Positions 36,500-62,846 of a stretch of DNA of 64,000 bases are shown here, piece after piece (the first letter of the stretch is position 1; every line of letters begins with the position of its first letter). The stretch is from Methanoregulaceae archaeon (lineage in GTDB: Bacteria > Armatimonadota > Fimbriimonadia > Fimbriimonadales > Fimbriimonadaceae). The notes beneath the pieces were generated by a model that was given only the letters and a program-made list of their open reading frames with translations, made no database searches and was not told the DNA's origin. The stretch spans positions 62,001 to 126,000 of the forward strand of contig JADZEW010000026.1 of NCBI GenBank assembly GCA_020850325.1, read 5' to 3'. The position numbers and the translations under genes were made by a program.

Positions 36500-36508
36500 C
36501 ACGGATCG

Positions 36509-37162
36509 TCACACTCGAATCGTGCCTAGCGGCAAAAGCGCCGTTTGTTCGCCGGTGCTCACGCGGACAAATCGGACTGCGCACGCGTAGCAGCCCGGAC
36601 GCGCGGCGATCTCCACCGATTGCCCTGCCGAGAACTCAACAAACGCCTTCGACCGATAGCGCGTGGCGAACGTCGCCGCAAACAAGTTGGGGAGCGGCTG
36701 GAGAAGCAACTCGGTCACGATCCCCTCGGCATTCGCCGAAGCCGCCGTGAACACAACACCCGACGCCGTCGCCGAGAGTGACACGTCCACCGAGTCGCCA
36801 CCAAAGACATTCTCGGGCGGCCACATCGAAATCAGTGGCTCCAAACCCAACGCGACTTGAGTCTGCCACGCCTTGGCCCCGAGGCGCATGAAGGTTTGCA
36901 CGACAGGAACGGCGCGTTGGCCGGGCTCGGCCTGCGCAAAGGCATACTCCTGCCAAGCCGCGTACTGAGCGCCGTCGAGCATCCGGAAGGCTTGGCCGGC
37001 GTGCCTCATGGCCGAGCGCCAAAGGTCCTGGGCGGGTGTGTTGGGATTGCGCGGGATCACCCGTGGACGCATGACCGTCGCCGACGGCTGCTCGACGAAT
37101 ACGACTCCCGCGAGCCGCCCGGAAAGCCCTCCCGTGAAGGGCATGGTCTTGACCTTGGCCAT
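36509..37162 (-). CDS. SGR/NPNT-motif protein, left paralogue flanking the defence island
   Basis: 217 residues. The N-terminus has 'PFTGGLSGRLAGVVF', then 'PRNPNTPAQDLWRS' and 'LDGAQYAAWQEYAFAQ'; the C-terminal part is beta-rich. The same layout (PF..SGR..GVV, NPNT.AQ, L..Q..AW..YA) is found in the gene at 47586-48299. It resembles DUF6266-like proteins ('SGKVG', 'NPRT.AQ'), which are small proteins of unknown role, perhaps virion or secretion-fibre related. It is on the opposite strand to its paralogue. The pair brackets the restriction island. Confidence 0.65.
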   Translation of the reverse strand: MAKVKTMPFTGGLSGRLAGVVFVEQPSATVMRPRVIPRNPNTPAQDLWRSAMRHAGQAFRMLDGAQYAAWQEYAFAQAEPGQRAVPVVQTFMRLGAKAWQTQVALGLEPLISMWPPENVFGGDSVDVSLSATASGVVFTAASANAEGIVTELLLQPLPNLFAATFATRYRSKAFVEFSAGQSVEIAARPGCYACAVRFVRVSTGEQTALLPLGTIRV

Positions 37163-37224
37163 AACGAAAAGGATCGGCAGCCGCGGCTCTGTTCTGCACC
37201 CCTTCCCGCTCCGTTCGGGTCGGA

Positions 37225-37268
37225 TTCGCTAGGAAACCCTAACGAAGCCCTAACGAAGGGATAGCGAA
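37225..37268. repeat. Palindrome with CCCTAA tandem motif at the left edge of the island
   Basis: TTCGCTA (37225-37231) and TAGCGAA (37262-37268) enclose CCCTAA at 37237 and again at 37248 (11-nt period). A similar CCCTAA-N5-CCCTAA occurs at the right edge at 47492-47508 in the same orientation. Confidence 0.55.
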
Positions 37269-37334
37269 CGCCTAGGGCATCGAAGAGCAAGGAATCGAGC
37301 CGTTGAACCTGGAGCCTGAGGTGGAAGAGCTCCA

Positions 37335-37502
37335 AAACGAAAAAAGTCCGCAAAATGCGGACACGCTATTGACTTCCCTTGTCAAACAACAGGTACTATT
37401 AAACGATTCGGGCCGAGCAGAGCTCAGCCCAAAATCACTTGTCATTGTTTCCGGCTGGAACCGGAGCAATCAACGAGAGGCCGAAGCCTCAACGCGTTTG
37501 CG
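37335..37502 (-). ncRNA. Predicted structured, terminated small RNA
   Basis: On the minus strand, transcription from about 37501 to the T-run at about 37335 would give a RNA of about 165 nt. Reading 5' to 3' it contains a GAGGC-TTCG-GCCTC hairpin, a TCCGG/CCGGA hairpin, a long arm (GATT, GGGC, GAGC paired with GCTC, GCCC, AATC), a TTGAC/GTCAA hairpin, and a terminator stem GTCCGC-ATTTT-GCGGAC (37361-37345) followed by TTTTTT. ACGCG near the 5' end can pair with CGTGT before the terminator, closing a multibranched fold. I recognise no known family. No open reading frame of note is in it. Confidence 0.65.
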
Positions 37503-37585
37503 CAATTAGTATAGGTCAGCGATGCAAGAAATGTCAACATTTTTTGCAAAAATGTCAAGAAATGACATGAGTTGATCTTGCGCAA
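37498..37585. promoter_or_regulatory. Paired TTGCGCAA operators
   Basis: Two perfect 8-bp palindromes TTGCGCAA, at 37498-37505 and 37578-37585, 80 bp apart. The first covers the predicted start of the small RNA and the second lies beyond its -35. Between them is ATGTCA-N5-TGACAT (37552-37568). The arrangement suggests a looping repressor controlling the sRNA and/or the DUF2130 gene. Confidence 0.5.
37508..37537 (-). promoter_or_regulatory. Strong minus-strand promoter of the small RNA
   Basis: On the minus strand: TTGACA (37537-37532), an 18-nt spacer, then TATACT (37513-37508). A second TTGACA lies about 21 bases further upstream (37557-37552). The -35 is perfect and the -10 matches 5 of 6. 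Start expected near 37501. Confidence 0.75.
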
Positions 37586-37635
37586 ATGCAGAGATTCGGT
37601 TTTTCGTCGGCAAGTTCGCAACGAGGAACACGGAT

Positions 37636-38889
37636 ATGCATAACGCAAACAGCATCAACATTACTTGCCCATCGTGCGAGCACACGTTCGCCCTGACCGA
37701 AACGCTGGTTAGCCAGCTCGAAGCGGAAGTCTCCGCGAAATTCCAAGCCGAGCGCAAGCGCGCGGAAGCCGAGATCGCAAAGCGCGAGGCAGACCTCACG
37801 CGACGCGAAGCTGAACGCGATCAAGCCATCGCGACTGCCGTCGCCGCCGCTCGCGTAACCATCGAGGCGGAAGCCAAGACTAAGGCCGGCGAAGCCACGC
37901 GTAAGGACCTGGCCGACCTCCAAGCCCAGCTGAGCGAGGCTAAGGTGAAGCAGAAGCAAGCCGAAGATGCTGAACTCGCCCTCCGCAAGGAGAAGCGCGA
38001 ACTCGAAGCGGCTCGCGAGAGTTGGGAGCTTGAGAAGGCTCGCCAACTCGAAGAGGAGCGGAAGTCGATCCGTGAGCACGAAGCCCAAGTTGCGGGCGAA
38101 GCGGCTCGCCAGCAGATCGCCGAGCGCGATCTCAAAATCAAGCAGCTCTCCGAGCAAGCCGACCTCCTGAAGCGAAAGGCGGAACAGGGCTCCGTCCAGC
38201 TCCAGGGCGAGACGCTCGAGCTCGAACTCCAGTCGGCACTCACCAGCTACTTCAAGACGGACGACATCGAGGAAGTCAAGAAGGGTTGCCGAGGAGGCGA
38301 CTGGCTGCAGCACGTCCGCCCGATGGGAGGATCGTGTGCGGGCACCATTCTGTGGGAGGCCAAGCGAGCCCTGAATTGGAGCAACGACTGGCCCGCGAAG
38401 TCGAAGCAGGACGCGTTCGAACAGGATGCGGCCATCGCGGTCATTGTTTCCGAGGTGTTACCGAAGGGCGTCCAGCATTTCGGGATGGTCGAGGGCGGAG
38501 TTTGGGTGACGAAGCCCGAGCATGCGGTGGCGCTGGCGACGGCACTTCGTTGCACGCTCATCGAGACCGCGCGGGTGCAAGCCGCCGTCGAGGGTCGCTC
38601 GACCAAGGCGGAAGCGCTGTGGGACTACGTCACCGGGCGAGAGTTTAAGACTCGCGTGGAGAACGCGATGGAAGCGTATCGCGACCTGGTGGATGACCAC
38701 CAGAAGGAAAAGACGGCCACGCTGCGCCGCTGGGCGAAGCGAGAGAAGGCGCACGAGCGTCTCGTCGCCAGCCTGTCGGGGATCCACGGCGACATCCAGG
38801 GCCTCGGCGGCGCGGACGTACCCGAGATGGACGAGGGCGAAATCTTAAGTCTGCCGTATACGCACGAGACTCCAAAAAATGCGCAGTGA
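37636..38889 (+). CDS. DUF2130 protein: zinc knuckle, long coiled coil, PD-(D/E)XK-like domain
   Basis: 417 residues. A CPSC knuckle at 11-14, a long charged coiled coil at about 25-190, then the DUF2130 core. In the core, Asp222 ('GGDWLQHV'), Glu241 and Lys243 ('ILWEAKRALNW') have the spacing and strand setting of a PD-(D/E)XK nuclease site. 'AIAVIVSEVLP' follows as the next core strand. DUF2130 proteins are of unknown function; the nuclease reading is an inference. It is the first plus-strand gene of the island and is transcribed away from the predicted small RNA. Confidence 0.8.
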   Translation: MHNANSINITCPSCEHTFALTETLVSQLEAEVSAKFQAERKRAEAEIAKREADLTRREAERDQAIATAVAAARVTIEAEAKTKAGEATRKDLADLQAQLSEAKVKQKQAEDAELALRKEKRELEAARESWELEKARQLEEERKSIREHEAQVAGEAARQQIAERDLKIKQLSEQADLLKRKAEQGSVQLQGETLELELQSALTSYFKTDDIEEVKKGCRGGDWLQHVRPMGGSCAGTILWEAKRALNWSNDWPAKSKQDAFEQDAAIAVIVSEVLPKGVQHFGMVEGGVWVTKPEHAVALATALRCTLIETARVQAAVEGRSTKAEALWDYVTGREFKTRVENAMEAYRDLVDDHQKEKTATLRRWAKREKAHERLVASLSGIHGDIQGLGGADVPEMDEGEILSLPYTHETPKNAQ

Positions 38890-38917
38890 AAAAAGTTATA
38901 GGCGTTGTGCGAACGTC

Positions 38918-38923
38918 TATAAT
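38918..38923 (+). promoter_or_regulatory. -10 element of the leader RNA
   Basis: Perfect TATAAT, 29 bases after the DUF2130 stop. The -35 is weak (GTTATA at 17-nt spacing). The expected start, about 38930, coincides with the first hairpin of the leader RNA. Confidence 0.65.
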
Positions 38924-38929
38924 AGCAGT

Positions 38930-39015
38930 AGGGAGCTACGAGTGCTAACACCCGAGCTCCCGTTGGTTATCGTAATCGCTTCGGCACCAACCGAAGCACC
39001 GACCCGGGAACCGGG
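38930..39015 (+). ncRNA. Structured leader RNA with predicted pseudoknot
   Basis: From about 38930 the transcript folds as: stem GGGAGCT/AGCTCCC (38931-38937 with 38955-38961) with inner GTG-CTAA-CAC; stem GCTTCGG/CCGAAGC (38978-38984 with 38991-38997); and CCCGG-GAA-CCGGG (39003-39015). The loop ACCAA (38986-38990) of the middle hairpin is complementary to TTGGT at 38963-38967, giving an H-type pseudoknot. It precedes the zinc-finger/winged-helix/NYN gene set by about 75 bases and is either a riboswitch-like leader or an independent RNA. I recognise no described family. Confidence 0.6.
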
Positions 39016-39088
39016 CGGACAGCCCATTATGGCGCGGAACTCGATTCCTTGTCAATGGTCAGCCGCTCGGTTCTTAAACATTCAAGAA

Positions 39089-39397
39089 ATGAATGACGTT
39101 GAACAAAGCCGGCTGACCGCGCAAGCGGAGGTCGCAATCGAGAATGTGTTGCGCTCGTATTTCGAGGCGCACCCCGACCAATGGGCGGAACTGCTCCGTG
39201 ATGAAGACTTCGTGCAGACGATGTACTTCACGAGCGGGGTCAAGTTGGATGTCCAGCACCAGCAGATCCATGCACCGGGACCCACCGCTCGCAAGTCAAC
39301 GGGCCATGGCAAGACCCTCTGCAACAATCGCGGTGTGCGAGGTGAGAACGTCACCTGCAAGCACTGTCTGCGCATCTTGGCGCGGAGGGCGGCATGA
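39089..39397 (+). CDS. Small zinc-finger protein
   Basis: 102 residues from the ATG at 39089; upstream in-frame starts run back through the structured leader and lack similarity, so they are rejected. The N-terminal half is acidic and helical. The C-terminal half has a zinc-binding pattern 'GKTLCNN' ... 'NVTCKHCLRIL', Cys and CxxC with a nearby His, typical of small treble-clef-like proteins in phages and mobile regions. It overlaps the next gene by 4 bases. Confidence 0.55.
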   Translation: MNDVEQSRLTAQAEVAIENVLRSYFEAHPDQWAELLRDEDFVQTMYFTSGVKLDVQHQQIHAPGPTARKSTGHGKTLCNNRGVRGENVTCKHCLRILARRAA

Positions 39398-40053
39398 TGG
39401 CACCTCTCATCGCCGAAGGCCGTGATGACTTGGTCCGGAGCGCGATCTTGCGTCACCTCTACAACTCGCGGAAGCGGCGTACCAAGGGATTCAAAACGAC
39501 TGAAATCGAGAAGGAACTTAAGCGCAGCGGAATCAGAGCGGGCGAGGTGAGGTCAAACTTGCCCTATCTGCTGGACAACGAATGGGTTGTGAGAGAGGAG
39601 TCTGAGCGACAGTTCCGCGCGAAGGGCGGAACAATGCAATCGGCGACTGCAACTCGCTACCGCATCTCGGCCAAGGGCGTCGACCTGGTCAACGGACAGG
39701 GTTCACCCTACACTCAGAACCAAGGCAAGTATGCGGGTATCCACATTGAGAACGTGCAAGGCACGGTCATCCTGGGTGACAACAACACCGTCAGCGAGCG
39801 GGCGGTCGAAGTCATCCGACCGCTTGATGCGCTGGCACAGGCTTTGGAAGCAAGCGTCGAGGTTGAAAACCAAGTCAAGTACGACATGCTGGCTGAACTT
39901 GGCACTCTGCGGGCAGCGCTGACCAAGCCAGAGCCGAATCGAACGGTTGTGAGAGCAACCGTCGACGCCCTGGCTCCGCTCGCGAATGTCGCAACGATCG
40001 CCGCATTCTTGCACCAACTGCAAACTGCGCTGAACGGAGGCGGGCTCCTCTAG
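39394..40053 (+). CDS. Winged-helix protein with a short glycine/asparagine beta motif
   Basis: 219 residues. The N-terminal 105 residues read as a winged helix-turn-helix ('VRSAILRHLYN', 'FKTTEIEKELKRSGI', 'NLPYLLDNEWVVREE'). A short motif 'IENVQGTVILGDNNTV' (about 118-133) follows. Its VQGTVILG core and GDNN turn resemble amyloid-like signalling motifs (RHIM-like, or the GDNN-rich tags of bacterial conflict proteins). The C-terminal 85 residues are helical. Start overlaps the previous stop (ATGA). Possibly a tethered effector or adaptor; function is unassigned. Confidence 0.55.
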   Translation: MMAPLIAEGRDDLVRSAILRHLYNSRKRRTKGFKTTEIEKELKRSGIRAGEVRSNLPYLLDNEWVVREESERQFRAKGGTMQSATATRYRISAKGVDLVNGQGSPYTQNQGKYAGIHIENVQGTVILGDNNTVSERAVEVIRPLDALAQALEASVEVENQVKYDMLAELGTLRAALTKPEPNRTVVRATVDALAPLANVATIAAFLHQLQTALNGGGLL

Positions 40054-40060
40054 TCAACTC

Positions 40061-40087
40061 GGCCCGCGTCTTCATTCGGCGCGGGCC
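40061..40087 (+). terminator. Hairpin between winged-helix and NYN genes
   Basis: An 8-bp GC stem (GGCCCGCG with CGCGGGCC). No T-run follows, so it may attenuate or protect mRNA rather than terminate it. Confidence 0.45.
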
Positions 40088-40120
40088 CCGTCTCAATCAA
40101 AACACAGGAAGAAGAAAATA

Positions 40121-40660
40121 ATGGCAATGCATATCTACATCGACAACTCAAATATCTGGATCGAGGGCCAGCGGGTCGCCGCTGTGTTCAACGGGCAAGA
40201 GAAGAACATCAAGGACGCTATCCGAAACAAGACGATGGACAAGTCCTTTCGGATCAACCTTGGCAAACTCAAGTATTTTGCGGGCGGTGATGACGTGAAG
40301 TCAGTGGTGATCTTTGGAAGCCGACCACCTGCATCGGACGCGCTGTGGGACGTGATGCGGCGTCTGGGAATGGAACCGATCATCGTAGACCGCAATCCGT
40401 ATACGAACCAGGAGAAGAAGGTCGACACTGGGCTTGTGACTCGCATGGTGAAGGATGCATACACGAAGTTGGACAAGACTGCAGACCGAATCGTCTTGGT
40501 CGCCGGTGATGCAGACTTCGTTCCGACTGTCCAAGAACTACGCCAGGACGGCTTCGAAGTCGACGTTTGCTTCTGGGCTCACGCTTCACGTGAACTGGCG
40601 GCTGTGGCTTCGGAGTTCTTTGATATGACTCCGCACGTCGAGCACTTGAGGCTGCGGTAG
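40121..40660 (+). CDS. NYN-domain (LabA/DUF88-like) RNase
   Basis: 179 residues, PIN-like NYN fold. Acidic metal-binding residues are Asp8 ('YIDNSN'), Asp102 ('KKVDTGL'), Asp130 and Asp132 ('AGDADFVP'). Such proteins are metal-dependent ribonucleases or RNA-binding regulators, several from toxin or defence loci. It has an AGGAAG Shine-Dalgarno. It stands between two RNA hairpins in the middle of the island, downstream of the winged-helix gene. The target RNA is unknown; the structured RNAs of the island are candidates. Confidence 0.85.
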   Translation: MAMHIYIDNSNIWIEGQRVAAVFNGQEKNIKDAIRNKTMDKSFRINLGKLKYFAGGDDVKSVVIFGSRPPASDALWDVMRRLGMEPIIVDRNPYTNQEKKVDTGLVTRMVKDAYTKLDKTADRIVLVAGDADFVPTVQELRQDGFEVDVCFWAHASRELAAVASEFFDMTPHVEHLRLR

Positions 40661-40679
40661 CTAGCGGGTAGCACCGACG

Positions 40680-40705
40680 CGTGGGGCAACATAGGTTGCC
40701 CCACG
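40680..40705 (+). terminator. Perfect hairpin after the NYN gene
   Basis: An 11-bp perfect stem closing loop ATAG (CGTGGGGCAAC with GTTGCCCCACG). It separates the NYN transcript from the PIN/R-M operon. No T-run. Confidence 0.5.
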
Positions 40706-40744
40706 TACCAAATCACCCTCGCGCATAACGTGCTATAAACACAC

Positions 40745-41704
40745 GTGAGAGGTGACGGAGCCATCGACTACGTTCAAACATCCATCTTGGTGTCGGGGGA
40801 GGGATTTCACGGGCGGTCCGTCCAGCCGGAGGCTCAGGCCGTGTTCGTGCGCCAGACCCTCCAGGCGGTGCGGGATGCGGCGCGGCTGAAGACGCTTCAT
40901 GGCTCACGCATCAAGGGGCGGCCAATCAAGCCGCTGGAGAGCGCCTGGGACCTCCTGATGGAGCCGTGGGAGGCGAGCGGCGAGGAAACCCGGTTCCTCT
41001 TTCGGGCGCCGACGCTCGGCTCGGCGGCACCTGCCCTCTTCGAGCAGCAGGGCTTGTTCGAAGAAGATCGCCTACAGCCGGAATGGACCGTCTTTGACCT
41101 GCTGGGCCAAGTCATTCACGATGTGGACCGTGCGCAAAGGGAGACGACGAATCTCGACTTCGGAATGCTGGACTCGCTCAAGGGATACCGGTCAAGCGTT
41201 CGGGGCGGCAAGGCTCACGCGACCTTTGAGTTCAGTAACCACGCCGCCGCGACCGCGCTGATCGACGAAGATCTCGTGCGAAAGGCGACCGACGCGCTGG
41301 CTACGACGCCGGAGTCACGCCTGGTTCGAGTCGCGGGAAAACTGGACATGCTGAGGCTAAGCAATCGCCTCTTCCAACTGAAGCTCCTCGACGGCAAGGC
41401 TTTACGGGGCGTGTGGCAAGGGGACGAAGCCGAACTGATCGACGCCATGAAACTGCCGGCTGTGGTCATGGAGGGCCTCGCCAACTACCGCGCGAATGGG
41501 GACGTACTGGCGATCGTGGGTAACTCCGTGCGACCGGCGGGTGAAGCGGATCAGGCCTATGGGAAACGTCCGGACCGAAGGAGCGCAAGTCTTCGCATGA
41601 TGATCGGCAAGCCGCAACCGGGGGTTCTGGCCAGCATCATTGGGAAGTGGCCGGGCGACGAAAGCGAGGAAGAGATTGACGACTTCCTGAGGGCGATCGG
41701 ATAG
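40745..41704 (+). CDS. PIN-partner protein, probable large antitoxin
   Basis: 319 residues from the GTG at 40745. It is separated by 3 bases from the PIN gene. There is no recognised family. A late region 'LVRVAGKLDMLRLSNRLFQLKLLDGKA', given in outline, has the alternating strands of an OB-like or beta-barrel antitoxin domain. Typical VapB-like antitoxins are far shorter, so this may be a combined antitoxin and regulator. Function is inferred only from the tight pairing with the PIN toxin. Confidence 0.5.
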   Translation: MRGDGAIDYVQTSILVSGEGFHGRSVQPEAQAVFVRQTLQAVRDAARLKTLHGSRIKGRPIKPLESAWDLLMEPWEASGEETRFLFRAPTLGSAAPALFEQQGLFEEDRLQPEWTVFDLLGQVIHDVDRAQRETTNLDFGMLDSLKGYRSSVRGGKAHATFEFSNHAAATALIDEDLVRKATDALATTPESRLVRVAGKLDMLRLSNRLFQLKLLDGKALRGVWQGDEAELIDAMKLPAVVMEGLANYRANGDVLAIVGNSVRPAGEADQAYGKRPDRRSASLRMMIGKPQPGVLASIIGKWPGDESEEEIDDFLRAIG

Positions 41705-41707
41705 GCC

Positions 41708-42142
41708 ATGGCGTATCTTTGGGATACGAGCCTCCTGGTCCACGCCGTCAGGGGCTCGGTGACGTTCAACAAGATTGATGCGTCACTGGGGCTGGTGGAG
41801 GCGAAGGTCGCTCCCACAATCTCGATTGTCTCGCGCGGGGAGATCATGGCCTTTGCCGCTCATAAGCACTGGGGGGCGGCCAAACTCAAAGTGCTGGAGA
41901 CCCTCCTGGACAGGTGCGTCGTCATCCCCATCGACGATGATGATCTTGTCGAAATCTACGCGGAGTTGGCGGAGCACAGTATCCGGAACGGTCGCAACGT
42001 CGGGCAGAATGATCTGTGGATTGCCGCGACGGCGGTTCACTTCGGCCTGACCGTCCTTACGCTTGACGGTGACTTCGCTCGGTGCAAACGAGTTAGCTAC
42101 ATTCAGTTCGATTCTGCGGGAGTCGAAATCGGAAGGAGATAG
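41708..42142 (+). CDS. PIN-domain toxin (VapC-like ribonuclease)
   Basis: 144 residues with the four PIN acids: Asp6 ('YLWDTSLLV'), Glu45 ('SRGEIMA'), Asp102 ('GQNDLWIAA') and Asp120 with Asp122 ('TLDGDF'). VapC-type PINs cleave tRNA or rRNA and are normally held inactive by an antitoxin. Here the partner upstream is a 319-residue protein. The stop is 3 bases before the start of the DNA methyltransferase, so the toxin is in one operon with the restriction system. Confidence 0.88.
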   Translation: MAYLWDTSLLVHAVRGSVTFNKIDASLGLVEAKVAPTISIVSRGEIMAFAAHKHWGAAKLKVLETLLDRCVVIPIDDDDLVEIYAELAEHSIRNGRNVGQNDLWIAATAVHFGLTVLTLDGDFARCKRVSYIQFDSAGVEIGRR

Positions 42143-42145
42143 AGG

Positions 42146-44065
42146 TTGGAAGAAGCAAACTGGGGACCCGAGAATCCGCATCCGCTGAGTCGGATGAAGA
42201 CGGAGTTGGTGTGGGAGGGGAAATACGACGAGTTCGGGAATCGGCGGCCCGTGCGGTTGCCCGACTATCCTCTCCCGCTTCAACGCGTTGAGCGGATCGA
42301 CGCGCCGAGCGACGCCGCCAAGGCTACAGCCGCCCGGCAGGGCGACCTGTTCGATCAAGAGTTATTCGAAAGGGGTTCACACCGCGACGACTTCCGGAAC
42401 ATGCTCATCTGGGGCGACAATAAACTCGCCCTCGCGGCCCTGCTCGAACAGTTCCGGGGCAAGGTGGACCTGATCTACATCGACCCGCCGTTTGATGTGG
42501 GGGCGGACTTCACGATGGAGGTTCCCCTTGGGGAGCGCGGGGGCGAGATCGAGAAAGAGCAATCAGTCTTGGAAGCGGTGGCCTATCGCGACACGTGGGG
42601 GAAAGGAACGGATTCTTATGTTCAGTTTCTAAGCGAGAGATTGTTTGTCGCTCGTGAACTCATGAGCAGCAGAGGCTCGATCTTTGTCCATTGCGACTAC
42701 CGGGTCTCACATCTGCTTCGAGCGATCTTAGAGGACCTGTTTGAGGGGTGTTTCTTGAATGAGGTTATATGGTCATACGGGGCGGGAGGAAACCCGCAGG
42801 AGTTCTTTCCTCGCAAGCACGACTCGATCTTCTGGTTCTCCCGAGCAGGGGTTTCGCAGATAAATCAAGACCTTGCCATAATGCGAGTTCCATACGATGA
42901 ATCGACGCTCTCAACGCACTACAAGAACGTTGATTCCCAAGGTCGGCGCTATCGAGTGCAGGTGAAGAACGGTCGTGAGTACGTGACGTACGCCGATGTC
43001 GGAAAACTGGTCACGGACGTGTGGACAGATATCGGGGCGCAGAATGCAACTTCGCCCATTTCGCCTGAGTCCACGGGGTACCGGACGCAGAAGCCAGAGA
43101 AGCTTCTTGAGCGAATCATCTCTGGAACGTCTGATGCGGACTTTCTGGTCCTCGACTTCTTCTGCGGCTCTGGGACGACATGCGCCGTCGCCGAAAAGCT
43201 CGGACGACGCTGGATCGGGGTCGACCTTGGGCGCTACGCCATCCACACCACCCGCAAGCGGCTGATCGGCGTGCAGCGCGAGCTTCACGCCAAGAACGAG
43301 CCGTACCGCTCGTTCGACGTGTACAACCTGGGCCGGTACGAGCGGCAATGGTGGCAGCTCGACCGGCTGCACGGAGCCGACACTGAGCACCGGCGTATCG
43401 TGCTCAAGTTCTACAAGGCCGCTCCGCTGGACAACTCGCCCAACCCGCTCCTGCATGGCATGAAGAACGGGGCGTATGTGCACGTCGACAAGATCGACTC
43501 CATCTTCGTATATGACGAGGCGCGCATGATTGCCCAGGCCGCCCAAGCGGTCGGGGCTCGAGAGCTGCATATCCTCGCCTGGGAGTTCGAGATGGAACTC
43601 AAGCGGAAGCTGGAGGCGCTCGCCGCCGAGACGGGGGTTAAGTTGCGCACGTTTCAGATTCCGCGCGAGATCATGGAGCCAAACCGCAACGAAGTGCAGT
43701 TCTTCGAGGCGGGGGCTTTGGAGGCCGCGATTGTTCGACATGAAGACGGTTCGCTCGATGTCAAGTTGGGGCACTTCAGCCCCGCACTGGCCGAAGCCCC
43801 GGAAGCGGAACTCGCGATGCTTCGGGAGCGGGCGATCAAGTCGCCGTTCGACTTCATTGACTTCTGGGCGATCGACTTCGACTGGGACGGCATCGAGCCC
43901 TTCGAGCACCACTGGCAGGACTACCGCACCCGCAAGGACCGCTCGCTGAAGACGACCTCGGACGCGAAATGGAGCTACGAGACGCCGGGCAAGCACCAGA
44001 TCTGCGTCAAAGTGATTGATGTGTTCGGGGTGGATACGACAACGGTGTTGGAGGTGGACGTCTAG
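42146..44065 (+). CDS. mod: Type III restriction-modification DNA methyltransferase (Mod), beta class
   Basis: 639 residues. Motif IV 'YIDPPFD' (DPPF at 113-116) precedes the AdoMet-binding motif I 'FFCGSGTT' (339-345), the beta order of type III Mod enzymes (N6-adenine). The target-recognition region lies between them. The TTG start at 42146 follows a GGAAGGAGAT Shine-Dalgarno. A C-terminal part of about 200 residues beyond the usual core is present. Its end overlaps the res start by one base. It would both protect host DNA and guide the Res subunit. Confidence 0.92.
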   Translation: MEEANWGPENPHPLSRMKTELVWEGKYDEFGNRRPVRLPDYPLPLQRVERIDAPSDAAKATAARQGDLFDQELFERGSHRDDFRNMLIWGDNKLALAALLEQFRGKVDLIYIDPPFDVGADFTMEVPLGERGGEIEKEQSVLEAVAYRDTWGKGTDSYVQFLSERLFVARELMSSRGSIFVHCDYRVSHLLRAILEDLFEGCFLNEVIWSYGAGGNPQEFFPRKHDSIFWFSRAGVSQINQDLAIMRVPYDESTLSTHYKNVDSQGRRYRVQVKNGREYVTYADVGKLVTDVWTDIGAQNATSPISPESTGYRTQKPEKLLERIISGTSDADFLVLDFFCGSGTTCAVAEKLGRRWIGVDLGRYAIHTTRKRLIGVQRELHAKNEPYRSFDVYNLGRYERQWWQLDRLHGADTEHRRIVLKFYKAAPLDNSPNPLLHGMKNGAYVHVDKIDSIFVYDEARMIAQAAQAVGARELHILAWEFEMELKRKLEALAAETGVKLRTFQIPREIMEPNRNEVQFFEAGALEAAIVRHEDGSLDVKLGHFSPALAEAPEAELAMLRERAIKSPFDFIDFWAIDFDWDGIEPFEHHWQDYRTRKDRSLKTTSDAKWSYETPGKHQICVKVIDVFGVDTTTVLEVDV

Positions 44066-47000
44066 TGGCCACCGAGATCACCTTCGAGAACAGAGATGCC
44101 CTGCGACCGCTGTTCAAGCCGCACGAAGAACCGATTCTTCATCGCACCAAGAATCCTACAGCTGGGGGGCCGGCCTTGGTGGTGCCCGGACGCCGACCCA
44201 GCAGTTGTCCCTTGGTGCGCCCCATCCGCGCGGAGGTCAAGGCGTTTCGAGAGTCGGGCTACGCGGGAGTCTCCGAGACGAGCCGCCGATTGCTGAGACA
44301 TTGGTTTGAGGCGGAGCACTTGGTTCAGGGCGAAGACGACTTACCCGTCCCCTTCGCGTATCACTTTGCCCAACGCGAGGCGATCGAGACGATCATCTAC
44401 TTGTACGAGTCGCGAGGGATATCGAGCGTGGCCTCGTTGCTGACCGAGTTCGGCGGGGGCAAGCTCGACGACTTGGCGGCGGGGATTCCGCCGATGGACG
44501 ATCGGTGGGCGAAGTATTGCACCAAGGTGGCCACGGGGGGCGGAAAGACCAAGATCATGAGCCTGCTCATGACGTGGAGCTACTTCCACCGGCTGTACGA
44601 GGAAGGGTCCGAGTTGCCGCAACACTTTGTGTTGATCGCGCCTAACATCACGGTTTATGAGCGGTTGCGCGACGACTTCGAGGGCGCGGCCATCTTTCAC
44701 CGCGACCCCTTGGTGCCCCTCGACTGGAAGGACGACTTCCAACTTGAGGTTGTGCTTCAGGAAGAAGCGGGCGGAACCGCATCGCGGGGCGCGGTTTACC
44801 TAACGAATATCCACCGCCTTTACGAGAGCCGCGACAAGGAGGACGATGACGAGGGGCCGGTGAGCATTTTTGGCCCGGTGGTCAAGAAGGCCAAGGCGCT
44901 GGATACGGGTGAGTCGTTACGGAAGCGGATTGCGTCGCACCCCAACATTCTGGTGATGAACGATGAGGCCCATCACCTTCACGATCCAGGATTGGCCTGG
45001 AACATCGCGATTGACACCCTGGATCAGCTTTCAAACGAACTTGGAAATGGGGGCGTGATGCTGCAGGTCGACTTCTCGGCCACGCCACGCCATAACAATG
45101 GCGATCTGTTTCGTCACATCGTGAGCGACTTCCCTCTCGGCGAGGCGGTCGATGCGGGGATTGTCAAGGTGCCGGTGCTCGGGGAGTCGGATGATCTGCC
45201 GGCGGTGCCCGACCCCAACATGTCGTTTGTGGATCGGTATCACCAGCACCTTCAGCTTGGATATCAACTCTACAAGCGCAGCTTGGATGAGGTGGGGGCT
45301 GTGCGCAAGCCCATCTTGTTCGTGATGACCGAGGATACGGACTCGGCGAAAGAGGTGGCTCGATACCTGAGCGATGAGAGCAAGTTTCCGGCACTGGGCG
45401 GCAAGGTACTCGACGTTCATACGAAGGTTAAGGGCAAGCTCAAGAAGGTGACCCGAAACGGCAAGGAGACCAAGGAGTTTGTCGAAGGCGAGTCGAACCT
45501 AAAGCCCGATGAACTTAGGTTTCTGCGGCAACTGTCGCGGGACTTGGATGCGAAGGACAGCCCCTACCGGTGCGTGGTCTCCGTGCTCATGCTTCGCGAA
45601 GGTTGGGACGTCAAGAACGTGACGACGATTGTGCCTTTGCGCGCCTACTCAGCGAAATCGGGCATCCTGCCCGAGCAGACTCTCGGGCGAGGCCTTCGGC
45701 GGATGTTTCCGGGGACGGAGATTCCAGAAAAGGTCGTCGTCGTGCACCATCCCGCATTCCGCAACCTCTACGAGCATGAGTTGGAGCAAGAAGGTCTCGA
45801 CATCGCGGTCATGCCGATTCGAGAGGACTTCAAAGAGACGGTTACGATCTTTGTGGACCATGACAACAAGTCGGTCGAGGACTTGGAGATCGAGATCCCG
45901 TTGATCTCAGACGCGGTTGAGACGAGTGCCGAGATGTCGCTCAGCTATGAGGAAGTGGTCGCCAAGTTCACGAGTTCTGGCTGGCCCAAGCTACCGGTCA
46001 AGTCGAAGGGGAGCGACCAGATCACGTATCACGAGCGGCACCTTTTCACGGACGAGACAATTGCGGCTCTCAAGCTCGATGCAGGCTTGCTTGCGACGGC
46101 GGCAACAGCGGTGAGCTACTTCGTGCAGATGATTGGGCGCCAGTGCAAGGTACCGAATGTCCATGCGACGCTGGCCCCGTTGGTTGAGAACTTCATTGCC
46201 GAGCACCTCTTTGAACGCAAGGTTGACCTTTACGGAGGCGAGATTGACCACCGCATGCGAGACGCGGATGTCAAACAGTACATCCTAGGTGTGTTCGCTG
46301 GGCTTGTCTTGGGCAAGGTGATCCATAAGCGTGATCGGCGGCAACTCTCCCAGGGCACCCGCCTCTCGACATGGAAGGCATTTCAGGCGACGAGCACCGA
46401 AGCGCGGCCAGCGGTCCCGGGAAGCAAAACGATGTTCAATCTGGTGCCCTGCGCTAACGACTTCGAGCAAGCCTTTGCTGACTTTCTTGAGCATGCGCCA
46501 GATGTCGTGGCTTACGCCAAAAATGCGGGTCCGCAGAAGTTGATGATTGACTACCTGAAGCCGGACAAAAACAAGGGATTCTACGTTCCCGACTTCTTCG
46601 CGCGAACGGCCTCGGGCCTGAACTACGTGATTGAACTCAAAGGTAAGACTGATGAGCTTGTCCCGCTAAAAGCAGCGGCTACTATGGAATGGTGCGCAAG
46701 TTCAACTGGGGATGAGGAGTGGCGATACCTGTACGTGCCCTACTACCTGTTCCAGACGTCTCCGGCGGCCGACATCGATGAACTTGACCGGGCATGCCTG
46801 CCGGTGCTCAGCGAGCTCGTGAACATGGCGATCCAACCTGCGCTGATGACCAAGTTCGATGACTCCAGTGCGAGCGTCACTAGGGATCGGGTTTTGGAGT
46901 TCCTTCGAGAGGCGGGTTATGCGACGTGCCCCAAGCCGTACGAGCCGCTGGTCAGGCAGTCGGTGGAGTTGTATCACTGGGTTTTGGAGTCAAGACACCA

Positions 47001-47472
47001 GTCTTTCAAGCCTGCGTTTACGTGCCTCCTGAAGCCGTTTGATGACTTGAGCATGTCGCTTCTCGTAGCTCGACTGGCTCCTCGACTGCCGCAATCAAAG
47101 TCTGATCGGGATATCTACTTCGATCCGAATCTAAACCACCTGAGCCATGGGCAAGCAAACACACTCGCCAAGCATCAGAGATGGATCCAGGATAATCTTG
47201 ATCGGAACAAGAGCATGCAGCGGCTTGGGACATTCCTGTTCTGCTTGAACTACGCTCAAACTTGGATGATCGATGCAGGAGGCGTGTGGGAAGACGTCCG
47301 GGACGAGTTCGCTTCAGCCGAGTTCCTTGAAGTGTTTGAGTGCCTTGACCAAGTCAACAAGTTCCGCAATAGCAGAGTTGCCCACGAGGGCGATGTGACT
47401 GACCCCGAGATTGCGCGTAAGGAGTTGGTTCACTGGCTGCGCACGATGTGTATGATGTTTGAACTAGTTTGA
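44065..47472 (+). CDS. res: Type III restriction Res subunit with C-terminal HEPN-like domain
   Basis: 1135 residues from a GTG overlapping the mod stop. The SF2 helicase has Walker A 'ATGGGKT' (about 154-160), DEAH 'NDEAHH' (about 297-302), and a 'LGRGLRRMFPG' motif VI region. The nuclease site PD-(D/E)XK is Pro842-Asp843 with Glu857-x-Lys859 ('VPDFFA', 'ELKGK'). The last 170 residues are extra for a type III Res: all-helical and ending in 'FRNSRVAHEGD', where Arg1101 and His1107 form the RX4-6H motif of HEPN ribonucleases (Asn right after Arg is also typical). So DNA cleavage and RNA cleavage may be joined in one chain. Confidence 0.9.
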   Translation: MATEITFENRDALRPLFKPHEEPILHRTKNPTAGGPALVVPGRRPSSCPLVRPIRAEVKAFRESGYAGVSETSRRLLRHWFEAEHLVQGEDDLPVPFAYHFAQREAIETIIYLYESRGISSVASLLTEFGGGKLDDLAAGIPPMDDRWAKYCTKVATGGGKTKIMSLLMTWSYFHRLYEEGSELPQHFVLIAPNITVYERLRDDFEGAAIFHRDPLVPLDWKDDFQLEVVLQEEAGGTASRGAVYLTNIHRLYESRDKEDDDEGPVSIFGPVVKKAKALDTGESLRKRIASHPNILVMNDEAHHLHDPGLAWNIAIDTLDQLSNELGNGGVMLQVDFSATPRHNNGDLFRHIVSDFPLGEAVDAGIVKVPVLGESDDLPAVPDPNMSFVDRYHQHLQLGYQLYKRSLDEVGAVRKPILFVMTEDTDSAKEVARYLSDESKFPALGGKVLDVHTKVKGKLKKVTRNGKETKEFVEGESNLKPDELRFLRQLSRDLDAKDSPYRCVVSVLMLREGWDVKNVTTIVPLRAYSAKSGILPEQTLGRGLRRMFPGTEIPEKVVVVHHPAFRNLYEHELEQEGLDIAVMPIREDFKETVTIFVDHDNKSVEDLEIEIPLISDAVETSAEMSLSYEEVVAKFTSSGWPKLPVKSKGSDQITYHERHLFTDETIAALKLDAGLLATAATAVSYFVQMIGRQCKVPNVHATLAPLVENFIAEHLFERKVDLYGGEIDHRMRDADVKQYILGVFAGLVLGKVIHKRDRRQLSQGTRLSTWKAFQATSTEARPAVPGSKTMFNLVPCANDFEQAFADFLEHAPDVVAYAKNAGPQKLMIDYLKPDKNKGFYVPDFFARTASGLNYVIELKGKTDELVPLKAAATMEWCASSTGDEEWRYLYVPYYLFQTSPAADIDELDRACLPVLSELVNMAIQPALMTKFDDSSASVTRDRVLEFLREAGYATCPKPYEPLVRQSVELYHWVLESRHQSFKPAFTCLLKPFDDLSMSLLVARLAPRLPQSKSDRDIYFDPNLNHLSHGQANTLAKHQRWIQDNLDRNKSMQRLGTFLFCLNYAQTWMIDAGGVWEDVRDEFASAEFLEVFECLDQVNKFRNSRVAHEGDVTDPEIARKELVHWLRTMCMMFELV

Positions 47473-49595: not shown

Positions 49596-49682
49596 GGGCC
49601 CTACTATGGCTGAAACCTGGTCCGTTCTGCGCTTCAGCCGATCCGCTGGAGCACCCTACGTGCACCATCAGGTATAATGGCT

Positions 49683-49800
49683 TCTGTCTAGTCTGGCAAG
49701 CATTGTCAGAACGGGGGAACCACATCTGTGGGGTGAATCCATTCCGGAAGAGTTGCACCGAACTCTAACCCGTCAGCTAACCTCGGAGACTGAGCCATCA
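49683..49800 (+). promoter_or_regulatory. Cyclic di-AMP (ydaO/yuaA) riboswitch 1
   Basis: The conserved blocks of the ydaO aptamer are present in order: 'AACGGGGGAACC', 'GGGGTGAATCC', 'CCGAACTC', 'CCGTCAGCTAACCTCG' with the closing AGTCT/AGACT pair. A perfect TATAAT at 49673-49678 lies just upstream. After the aptamer a hairpin (GAGC, TGCCG with CGGCA, GCTC, at 49802-49825) may form the expression platform. It controls the 117-residue gene at 49854, whose Shine-Dalgarno GGAGGTGAT is unusually strong. Confidence 0.9.
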
Positions 49801-49853
49801 TGAGCGTGCCGCCTTCGGCAAGCTCCATGACCGTAACGCATGGAGGTGATTGT

Positions 49854-53130: not shown

Positions 53131-53171
53131 ATGACGACTCCTGCACATTGTTCATCTATTTCGGGTATAAT

Positions 53172-53297
53172 CTTTGCAACGTTGAATCCGGCTATGCCGG
53201 AACGGGGGAACCAAACCTTAGGGGTAAATCCAGCTTAACGCTGGACGGGCATCTTTCGGCCCGAACCCGGCAGCTAACCTCGTAGACTCGTCGAAGG
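53172..53297 (+). promoter_or_regulatory. Cyclic di-AMP (ydaO/yuaA) riboswitch 2
   Basis: Conserved aptamer blocks 'AACGGGGGAACC', 'GGGGTAAATCC', 'CCCGAACCCGG' and 'CAGCTAACCTCGTAGAC' are in order. A perfect TATAAT (53166-53171) precedes. A GAGGGCG/CGTCCTC hairpin follows near 53299-53317 and may be the switching platform before the GGGAGGTGG Shine-Dalgarno. Downstream is the paralogous small protein at 53345. Confidence 0.9.
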
Positions 53298-53344
53298 AGA
53301 GGGCGTTTGTCGTCCTCATGAACTCTAGCAACCGGGAGGTGGCT

Positions 53345-61665: not shown

Positions 61666-62846
61666 CGTCGCCCGCCGCCGCGGCGGCGCGGAACGGCAGC
61701 GAGCATGGCCATCTTCGAGGGCCGGGTGATGATCGGCGCGGGATCGCCCATCGGCGAAACCGGAATCGGTCGATCCATGAGCCGCTCGATGGCGCACATG
61801 TCCTTCACCTGGTCGGCGAGCGCGAGCGTAACCGCTCGACCCTCGGCACCAGCCCGGCCGGTGCGTCCGATGCGGTGCACGTAGTCCTCGGCCGTCTGGG
61901 GAACATCGTAGTTGATAACGAGTTCGATGTCCTTTACGTCGATGCCACGAGCGGCGATGTCGGTCGCGACAAGAACCTGGTAGTGACCCGACTTGAAGCC
62001 TTCGAGCGCCTCACGGCGCTGAGCGAGGGTTCGATCGGCGTGGATTTCGGCTGCGCGATGACCGTCTTGGTGCAGCATGCGGGCGAGCTTGCGCGCGCCA
62101 TGCCGGGTTCGAGCGAACACCAGCGTGCTGCCTCGGGTCTTGCCGATGAGCGAGCGGAGCATATCCTGCTTGCGATCTTGGGCCAGGTAGACCACCTCTT
62201 GGGTGACCAAGTGCGAGGCCGTTCCCTGAGGAGCGACTTCGACCCGCTGCGGATCGATCAGATAGTGCGCGGCAAGTTGGGCGATGCCCTGCGGCATCGT
62301 GGCGCTGAACAGCATCGTCTGTCGCTGCTCGGGCAACTGGTTGAAGATGGTGCGGATTGCCGGGGCGAAGCCCATGTCGAGCATTCGGTCGGCTTCGTCG
62401 AGCACCGCGATCGAGACGTTTCGCAGTGAAACGGTCCGTTGCTGAAGGTGGTCGATGAGGCGGCCGGGGGTCGCGACGATCACCTTGGGGCGTGCCCGCA
62501 GGTCGCGGATCTGGCGTCCCATGGAGTCGCCGCCGATGATCAGCACCGACGATAGTCCGATCATGCTGAGCGAGGCTTGAATCTGCTGGGCGAGCTCGCG
62601 GGTCGGGGCGAGAATCAGTGCAGTTTGGCCGTCGCGAAGCCGATGGGCGATCGGTAGGCCGAACGCGAAGGTCTTGCCGGTGCCGGTCTGGGCGAGGCCG
62701 ATGACATCGAGCCCGCGGAGTCCGAGCGGGATGGCCGCCTCTTGGATCGGGGTCGGGGTGTCGATGTTGTGATGAAGGAGGCGGGCGCAATAGTCAGGCG
62801 CAACACCGAGTGCGGCAAAAGCCGATTGGGTTTTGGTATGGGACAT
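61662..62846 (-). CDS. DEAD-box RNA helicase (RhlE-like)
   Basis: 394 residues. Helicase core with Q motif ('TPTPIQEAAIP'), AQTGTGKT, PTRELA, DEAD, SAT, and 'HRIGRTGRAG'. A short basic tail (RRRGGGRR) replaces any C-terminal RNA-binding domain, as in RhlE. Start ATG at 62846 chosen over an earlier ATG nine codons upstream, since the family starts with the Q-motif segment just after. It complements the CsdA-type helicase at 18263. The C-terminal extension ends near the bidirectional terminator. Confidence 0.9.
   Translation of the reverse strand: MSHTKTQSAFAALGVAPDYCARLLHHNIDTPTPIQEAAIPLGLRGLDVIGLAQTGTGKTFAFGLPIAHRLRDGQTALILAPTRELAQQIQASLSMIGLSSVLIIGGDSMGRQIRDLRARPKVIVATPGRLIDHLQQRTVSLRNVSIAVLDEADRMLDMGFAPAIRTIFNQLPEQRQTMLFSATMPQGIAQLAAHYLIDPQRVEVAPQGTASHLVTQEVVYLAQDRKQDMLRSLIGKTRGSTLVFARTRHGARKLARMLHQDGHRAAEIHADRTLAQRREALEGFKSGHYQVLVATDIAARGIDVKDIELVINYDVPQTAEDYVHRIGRTGRAGAEGRAVTLALADQVKDMCAIERLMDRPIPVSPMGDPAPIITRPSKMAMLAAVPRRRGGGRR

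Follow-up and report, generated by a model that had tools for sequence, protein, structure and literature searches.

The 64,000-nucleotide stretch analysed here (the window; positions 62,001 to 126,000 of contig JADZEW010000026.1) carries a candidate small RNA at the edge of a restriction island, which raises the question of whether this is a genuine RNA gene and, if so, what it would act upon. The original prediction had proposed a promoter-driven, multi-hairpin small RNA outside the known families, which might serve the island RNases as a partner or act as an RNA antitoxin. The first part of this proposal is supported by the analysis below, and the RNA gene on the minus strand can be laid out as follows.

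37508..37537, minus strand: RNA promoter TTGACA-N18-TATACT, matching the consensus at 11 of 12 positions (–35 box at 37537-37532, –10 box at 37513-37508)
37340..37501, minus strand: small RNA of ~160 nt, with a predicted start at ~37501 and both ends placed from the promoter and terminator
37471..37495, minus strand: hairpin A, core GAGGC-UUCG-GCCUC, compensatory change in 10 of 13 pairs
37450..37466, minus strand: hairpin B, 5-bp stem and 6-nt loop in most loci, compensatory change in 4 of 7 pairs
37436..37449, minus strand: A-rich linker (AACAAUGA...), conserved across loci
37405..37436, minus strand: hairpin C, base GAUUU...AAAUC, highest conservation, compensatory change in 6 of 16 pairs
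37369..37404, minus strand: single-stranded stretch and hairpin D (UUGAC/GUCAA), conserved across loci
37340..37362, minus strand: intrinsic terminator, 7-pair stem (37362-37346) followed by TTTTTT

The promoter was borne out as originally described: it scored above all 300 shuffles and was the only promoter-like site in the 36500-38500 region, where shuffles expect 0.2. At the matching position, a promoter-like site (9-11 of 12) was found in all six loci at which the RNA is recognised (see below); all of these are predicted promoters, in a phylum whose promoters have seen little experimental study. The 170 nt downstream of the promoter fold at –64.2 kcal/mol (z –3.3), with none of 200 shuffles as stable, and the four hairpins (A-D) of the transcript, originally put at ~165 nt, are conserved in relatives. 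The closing stem that had also been proposed is present in the window's own minimum-energy fold, but was not conserved in the relatives in which it was looked for. The terminator with its six T is likewise as predicted; when sought at the corresponding place in the five other loci none was found, so that a clear 3′ end is seen only in the window copy. A search of Rfam 15 with the RNA yielded no family at its gathering threshold, in line with the earlier failure to place it, and the best sub-threshold matches were SorY (15 bits, needing 111) and RefA5 (16.1 bits, needing 91).

A plain nucleotide search of 61 genomes revealed nothing convincing outside the window's own genome. Relatives of the adjacent DUF2130 gene are carried by 14 of 85 genomes of the family, and reading upstream of these genes revealed a divergent promoter followed by window-like hairpins in five other Fimbriimonadaceae (Armatimonadota) genomes (G074, G006, G105, G094 and G063). 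The RNA is therefore divergent from DUF2130 in 6/6 loci, and a recognisable RNA is missing at 8 of the 14 family DUF2130 genes. A leave-out covariance model (R2), built from G074, G105 and G006 only and excluding the window, returned 37369-37503 (minus strand) as its top match in the window (32.9 bits, E 9e-7 in 85 kb; next-best match 10.3 bits), and also detected the copies in G094 (8e-18) and G063 (1.6e-5). In an alignment of the six loci, three of which are close relatives, fitted to the structure, 92.5% of cells pair and both-side changes occur in 21 of 40 pairs, a number reached by none of 500 shuffles, while slid structures yield 2-5. When five loci were aligned by MAFFT without fitting to the structure, hairpin C by itself showed compensation in 6 of 16 pairs, with every cell paired. 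Compensatory changes, on whose presence the original prediction had staked the RNA, were thus found, and together with the leave-out detection they make a conserved structured RNA gene of a new family a well-supported interpretation of these sequences.

Across 113 genomes of the order, a further model (R1) found at least five copies, and across 291 genomes of the phylum another (R3) found at least six true copies, one per genome, plus two chance matches; these counts are lower bounds because the first search pass was lossy and R2 missed the known window locus there. R3 matches in G129 and G104 were rejected, one lying within a coding region and the other at a gene end. A 42-nt hairpin-like match in G007, located between convergent genes, is probably a terminator. 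Sequences resembling hairpin C (GATTC-GGGC...GCCC-GAATCGTT) occur at or between gene ends at L005 1501-1546 (G007) and L072 1560-1610 (G104) and are probably terminators of the lineage. A would-be seventh member in G011 (L010 2831-2954), which had reached an R3 E of 0.026 and a long-hairpin z of –4.1, was also rejected, since it is crossed by an open frame resembling the C-terminal part of a real protein. By eye, this coding stretch (L010 2488-3054), directly upstream of DUF2130 and lacking an evident start, resembles the C-terminal part of a restriction-type nuclease (..RLWDQEDLVRNLL..EIPLKRIWTL), and it mimics the RNA hairpins.

Two other identities for the element were discarded. A MITE-like repeat does not agree with its single copy in the genome, and a leader or riboswitch of the next minus-strand gene (36509-37162) is contradicted by the intervening terminator and by the other loci, which are without such a gene. 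A pattern scan of viral contigs gave no match. The 36509-37162 gene itself encodes 217 aa without a Pfam match, and relatives occurring twice in the G021 stretch (L066) make it look like a multicopy family of these genomes.

On the other side of the RNA gene, DUF2130 is the first in a plus-strand run of genes with Mod and Res at its end; most neighbours in the run overlap or are separated by a few bases.

37636..38889, plus strand: DUF2130 (PF09903), 417 aa, with an N-terminal cysteine pair, a coiled coil and a restriction-nuclease-like domain
38879..42142, plus strand: variable middle genes (172 aa, 219 aa, NYN, 319 aa, PIN), absent from the other RNA-bearing islands
42146..44065, plus strand: Mod, type III-like methyltransferase by domain match
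44065..47472, plus strand: Res, type III-like restriction subunit by domain match

Mod, with its N4/N6 methylase domain, stands beside Res, with its ResIII helicase domain, which is the composition of a type III restriction-modification system. A type III-like Mod-Res pair is found in the operon in five of the six genomes: relatives lie downstream of DUF2130 in G074, G094 and G105, and the DUF2130 contig of G006 ends while another starts mid-mod with res behind it, which we read as a single island split by a contig break. The G063 locus retains the RNA, DUF2130 and a 5′-nucleotidase gene and has no such Mod. In the window, NYN and PIN occupy the interval from DUF2130 to Mod; in G074, G006, G105 and G063 the 5′-nucleotidase is found there, and in G094 other genes. 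Because these genes vary from island to island, the RNA tracks DUF2130 rather than the NYN, PIN and HEPN RNases to which it had originally been tied, and these RNases, absent from the other RNA-bearing islands, are not its conserved partners. This DUF2130-Mod slot (L046 8549-9448, L026 5273-6232) resembles a cargo slot, its contents including a 5′-nucleotidase, a metallo-beta-lactamase-like protein (by eye) or NYN and PIN. Integrase-like or replication genes occur in two islands; in one (L027, Fimbriimonadaceae ACE_ARM8), integrase, Rep_trans-like and HTH genes at 24-2864 lie directly upstream of the RNA-DUF2130 locus, which suggests a mobile element. The window's own genome has a second Mod-Res pair on contig C3 of G000 (L064, 2443-4305), in which a stop codon breaks the mod frame.

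The DUF2130 protein matches PF09903 at 165.5 bits (gathering score 26.7), and the residues conserved across the family include the N-terminal cysteines C11 and C14 and an invariant D222, E241 and K243, which may correspond to the D...ExK motif of a PD-(D/E)XK nuclease fold. Its AlphaFold model (mean pLDDT 81) consists of a small domain at the N terminus, a long helix and an alpha-beta domain. The best Foldseek matches were restriction-nuclease-like domains of DdmD, MspJI, Bax1 and SPARDA, at an E of only ~0.01. We read DUF2130 as a probable nuclease. Type I toxins are small, usually hydrophobic peptides, SymE being a non-hydrophobic exception; the gene next to the RNA does not resemble them, as it encodes a 417-aa protein with a restriction-nuclease-like domain instead of a small hydrophobic peptide. 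Among the 5.39 million open papers searched, three mention DUF2130, none of them concerning RNA or defence to judge by title and abstract, and no paper there was found to combine Armatimonadetes with noncoding RNA motifs or Fimbriimonas with small RNA.

Between the RNA and DUF2130, three further plus-strand elements could be delineated.

37369..37399, plus strand: promoter-like site TTGACT-N19-TACTAT inside the RNA gene, the region's best plus-strand site, weak (P 0.19)
37466..37503, plus strand: left arm of a long imperfect inverted repeat, complementary to the first ~40 nt of the RNA
37578..37611, plus strand: right arm of this repeat, immediately ahead of the DUF2130 ribosome-binding site and holding the second TTGCGCAA

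The palindromes originally noticed at the start site and 80 bp upstream were confirmed, TTGCGCAA being present exactly twice in the window (37498 and 37578), and these copies form the innermost part of a far longer imperfect inverted repeat that extends from the RNA 5′ end to the DUF2130 start codon. In five loci, a long leader hairpin of 23-33 pairs is predicted, in which the complement of RNA nt 1-25/45 pairs with leader sequence that stops 3-18 nt short of the ATG. The corresponding 147 nt of the window fold at –62.5 kcal/mol (z –7.0) on the plus strand and at –43.8 kcal/mol (z –4.1) on the minus strand. Over the 150 plus-strand nucleotides upstream of DUF2130, the six RNA loci gave z values of –7.0, –4.9, –3.3, –3.0, –5.2 and –2.2, and the same region of 22 DUF2130 loci without the RNA gave a mean z of 0.05. 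Underlying the hairpin is a repeated element common to the RNA 5′ end and the leader; in five loci its offset is constant at 64-75 nt (combined P 3e-6). Its sequence varies by locus (TTGCGCAAA in the window, TCAAATTGGTTC in G074, CAAATTGGTTCT in G006, GTTTGCCTTG in G094 and TGCCAGCTT in G105), and in G063 it is found only with a gap.

In four of the six loci, the best predicted promoter toward DUF2130 occupies the equivalent position within the RNA gene. It is strong and significant in G094 (TTGACC-N18-TATAAT) and G006, individually non-significant in the window and G074, second best and weak in G105, and absent in G063. Because of the long inverted repeat and the frequent location of this promoter inside the RNA gene, we favour, with a probability of about 0.5, the reading that the RNA is a structured cis-antisense regulator acting on the 5′ leader of the defence operon that runs from DUF2130 to Mod-Res. 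According to this reading, the strong promoter would yield the structured ~160-nt RNA, and the operon mRNA would start on the opposite strand inside the RNA gene or beyond it, so that ~100 nt of the operon leader would be complementary to the RNA. In sequence, the left arm of the leader hairpin is complementary to the first ~40 nt of the RNA, and the right arm copies the RNA 5′ end and reaches the DUF2130 ribosome-binding site. The RNA and the right arm would compete for pairing with the left arm, and the leader might consequently be re-folded, blocked or destabilised, while the two facing promoters may interfere mutually. In this way the dosage or timing of a dangerous restriction operon would be controlled, most likely through repression, with expression lowered or delayed. 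When the antisense region was forced unpaired in folding tests, the mean unpaired probability of the window's ribosome-binding site dropped from 0.63 to 0.24, but little changed in most other loci, so that repression is a tentative direction of control. In plasmid rep leaders (pIP501 RNAIII, CopA/CopT), antisense RNA competes with an intramolecular leader stem. The competition proposed here is of the same kind, although the leader order, the element sizes and the controlled gene differ, and the DUF2130 leaders showed no conserved attenuator terminator.

The main rival, which we consider unlikely, is a protein-binding role, in which DUF2130 or Mod-Res would be bound by the RNA and the RNA would act as a partner, an inhibitor or a guide. 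Its place beside DUF2130 in six of six loci, with Mod downstream in five, and the conservation of the A-rich linker and hairpin C would suit such a role, for which AbiF/RCd22 offers a precedent in which a neighbouring RNA binds and neutralises its protein (PMC12373285). AbiF/RCd22 and the type III antitoxin RNAs indeed resemble the present case in placing a conserved structured RNA beside a defence gene, and those RNAs bind the toxin protein (PMC12373285). Here, however, the RNA is divergent, tandem repeats sought within it were absent, and the loci share no HEPN or ToxN partner gene, which sets the locus apart from type III toxin-antitoxin systems, where a tandem-repeat RNA lies upstream of, and in the same direction as, a gene of the ToxN/AbiQ/CptN type. 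Protein binding is further contradicted by the 8 of 14 family DUF2130 genes without a recognisable RNA, and by close Mod-Res relatives in other families (G041 and G038) that have neither DUF2130 nor the RNA nearby. Moreover, RNA and DUF2130 similarities are discordant: the G094 RNA is 65% identical to those of G074 and G006 while its DUF2130 is 32-33% identical, and in G063 the values are 59-62% for the RNA and 63-67% for DUF2130 (59% and 63% versus G074 specifically). In the protein tree, which also labels the later-rejected G011 as RNA-bearing, the RNA-bearing DUF2130s are scattered rather than forming one clade. This discordance is better explained by a cis-regulatory cassette than by a co-evolving RNA-protein pair. 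Of the antitoxin role considered at the outset, what is left is an antisense RNA against the DUF2130 operon leader, as its anatomy fits binding of a toxin protein less.

The inverted repeat and palindromes might instead be DNA operators for a regulator of the divergent promoters, the RNA then being trans-acting or a minor product. Points in favour are that the window has TTGCGCAA both at +1 and 80 bp further upstream, that GTTTAC...GTAAAC repeats occur at the –35 box of G074, G006 and G063, and that HTH genes adjoin two RNA-bearing loci; because a strand-neutral count of G.U versus A.C in the repeat (12 versus 6) favours sense RNA only weakly, operators retain some credit. Nevertheless, the repeated element is non-palindromic in G094 and G105, and the hairpins of the RNA body carry compensatory changes, so that we regard operators as improbable. 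A regulatory RNA that acts in trans and has no connection with the adjacent gene, or a lineage-specific version of 6S or another housekeeping RNA, would account for the strong promoter and terminator, and no 6S above threshold was found in the window's genome. Such a role is very improbable given that the RNA occurs in only 6 of 291 genomes, in single copy and always at DUF2130, that it is not matched by the 6S covariance model (RF00013), and that it lacks a 6S-like single long hairpin. Most strongly disfavoured is a region encoding a short peptide instead of a non-coding RNA. ATGAAA..GATTTCGG.. does start a short frame (~18 codons in G105) in G074, G006 and G105, diverged in the window, but G094 is without a canonical start, G063 has it in a different frame, and the window and G074 are without a matching stop. 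In addition, changes in hairpin C preserve pairs and not amino acids, and hairpins A and B fall outside the frame.

The favoured antisense reading has its closest parallels in two systems linked to restriction-modification. EcoRI Rna0 is an 88-nt antisense RNA transcribed from the reverse promoter PREV0, part of a promoter convergence loop; it determines how strong restriction is and, acting in trans, alleviates post-segregational killing (PMC3874152). As in that case, a small RNA with a strong promoter faces a restriction-modification promoter, with predicted mRNA overlap and predicted control of restriction dosage. Rna0, however, arises inside the endonuclease gene and acts on a type II modification transcript, whereas here ~160 nt of covarying hairpins lie upstream of DUF2130, which heads a type III-like operon, and the RNA 5′ end is repeated in a long leader hairpin. 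SymR is antisense to the leader of a toxin, SymE, whose relatives are located in restriction islands (PMC1891008). The two cases share a divergent, overlapping antisense RNA against a 5′ leader (an overlap that is predicted here) and a link with restriction-modification islands (PMC1891008, PMC3874152). They differ in that SymR is transcribed from a promoter inside the symE reading frame and covers the symE ribosome-binding site, while the present RNA starts ~135 bp upstream of DUF2130 and would overlap the leader only; DUF2130 also belongs to a restriction-nuclease-like family unrelated to SymE.

More tentatively, and with less confidence than in antisense control at these loci, we consider it possible that the antisense RNA, facing promoters and leader hairpin copying the RNA 5′ end form a portable Armatimonadota cassette that reassorts among DUF2130 lineages and times their islands. 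Restriction islands need restraint while entering a new host. A 2013 review documented antisense control of restriction for two type II systems only, EcoRI and Eco29kI (PMC3874152). An antisense cassette heading DUF2130/type III-like islands would, if true, be the same solution in a little-studied phylum, representing a new RNA family and, as far as we found, the first case of a type III-like restriction operon under antisense control. DUF2130 would also gain its first regulatory and functional context, and the RNA in itself is a concrete new-family candidate with compensatory-change support. Further along the window, two c-di-AMP (ydaO) riboswitches, both above the Rfam gathering score, were found 3.4 kb apart on the plus strand (49675-49806 and 53170-53303).
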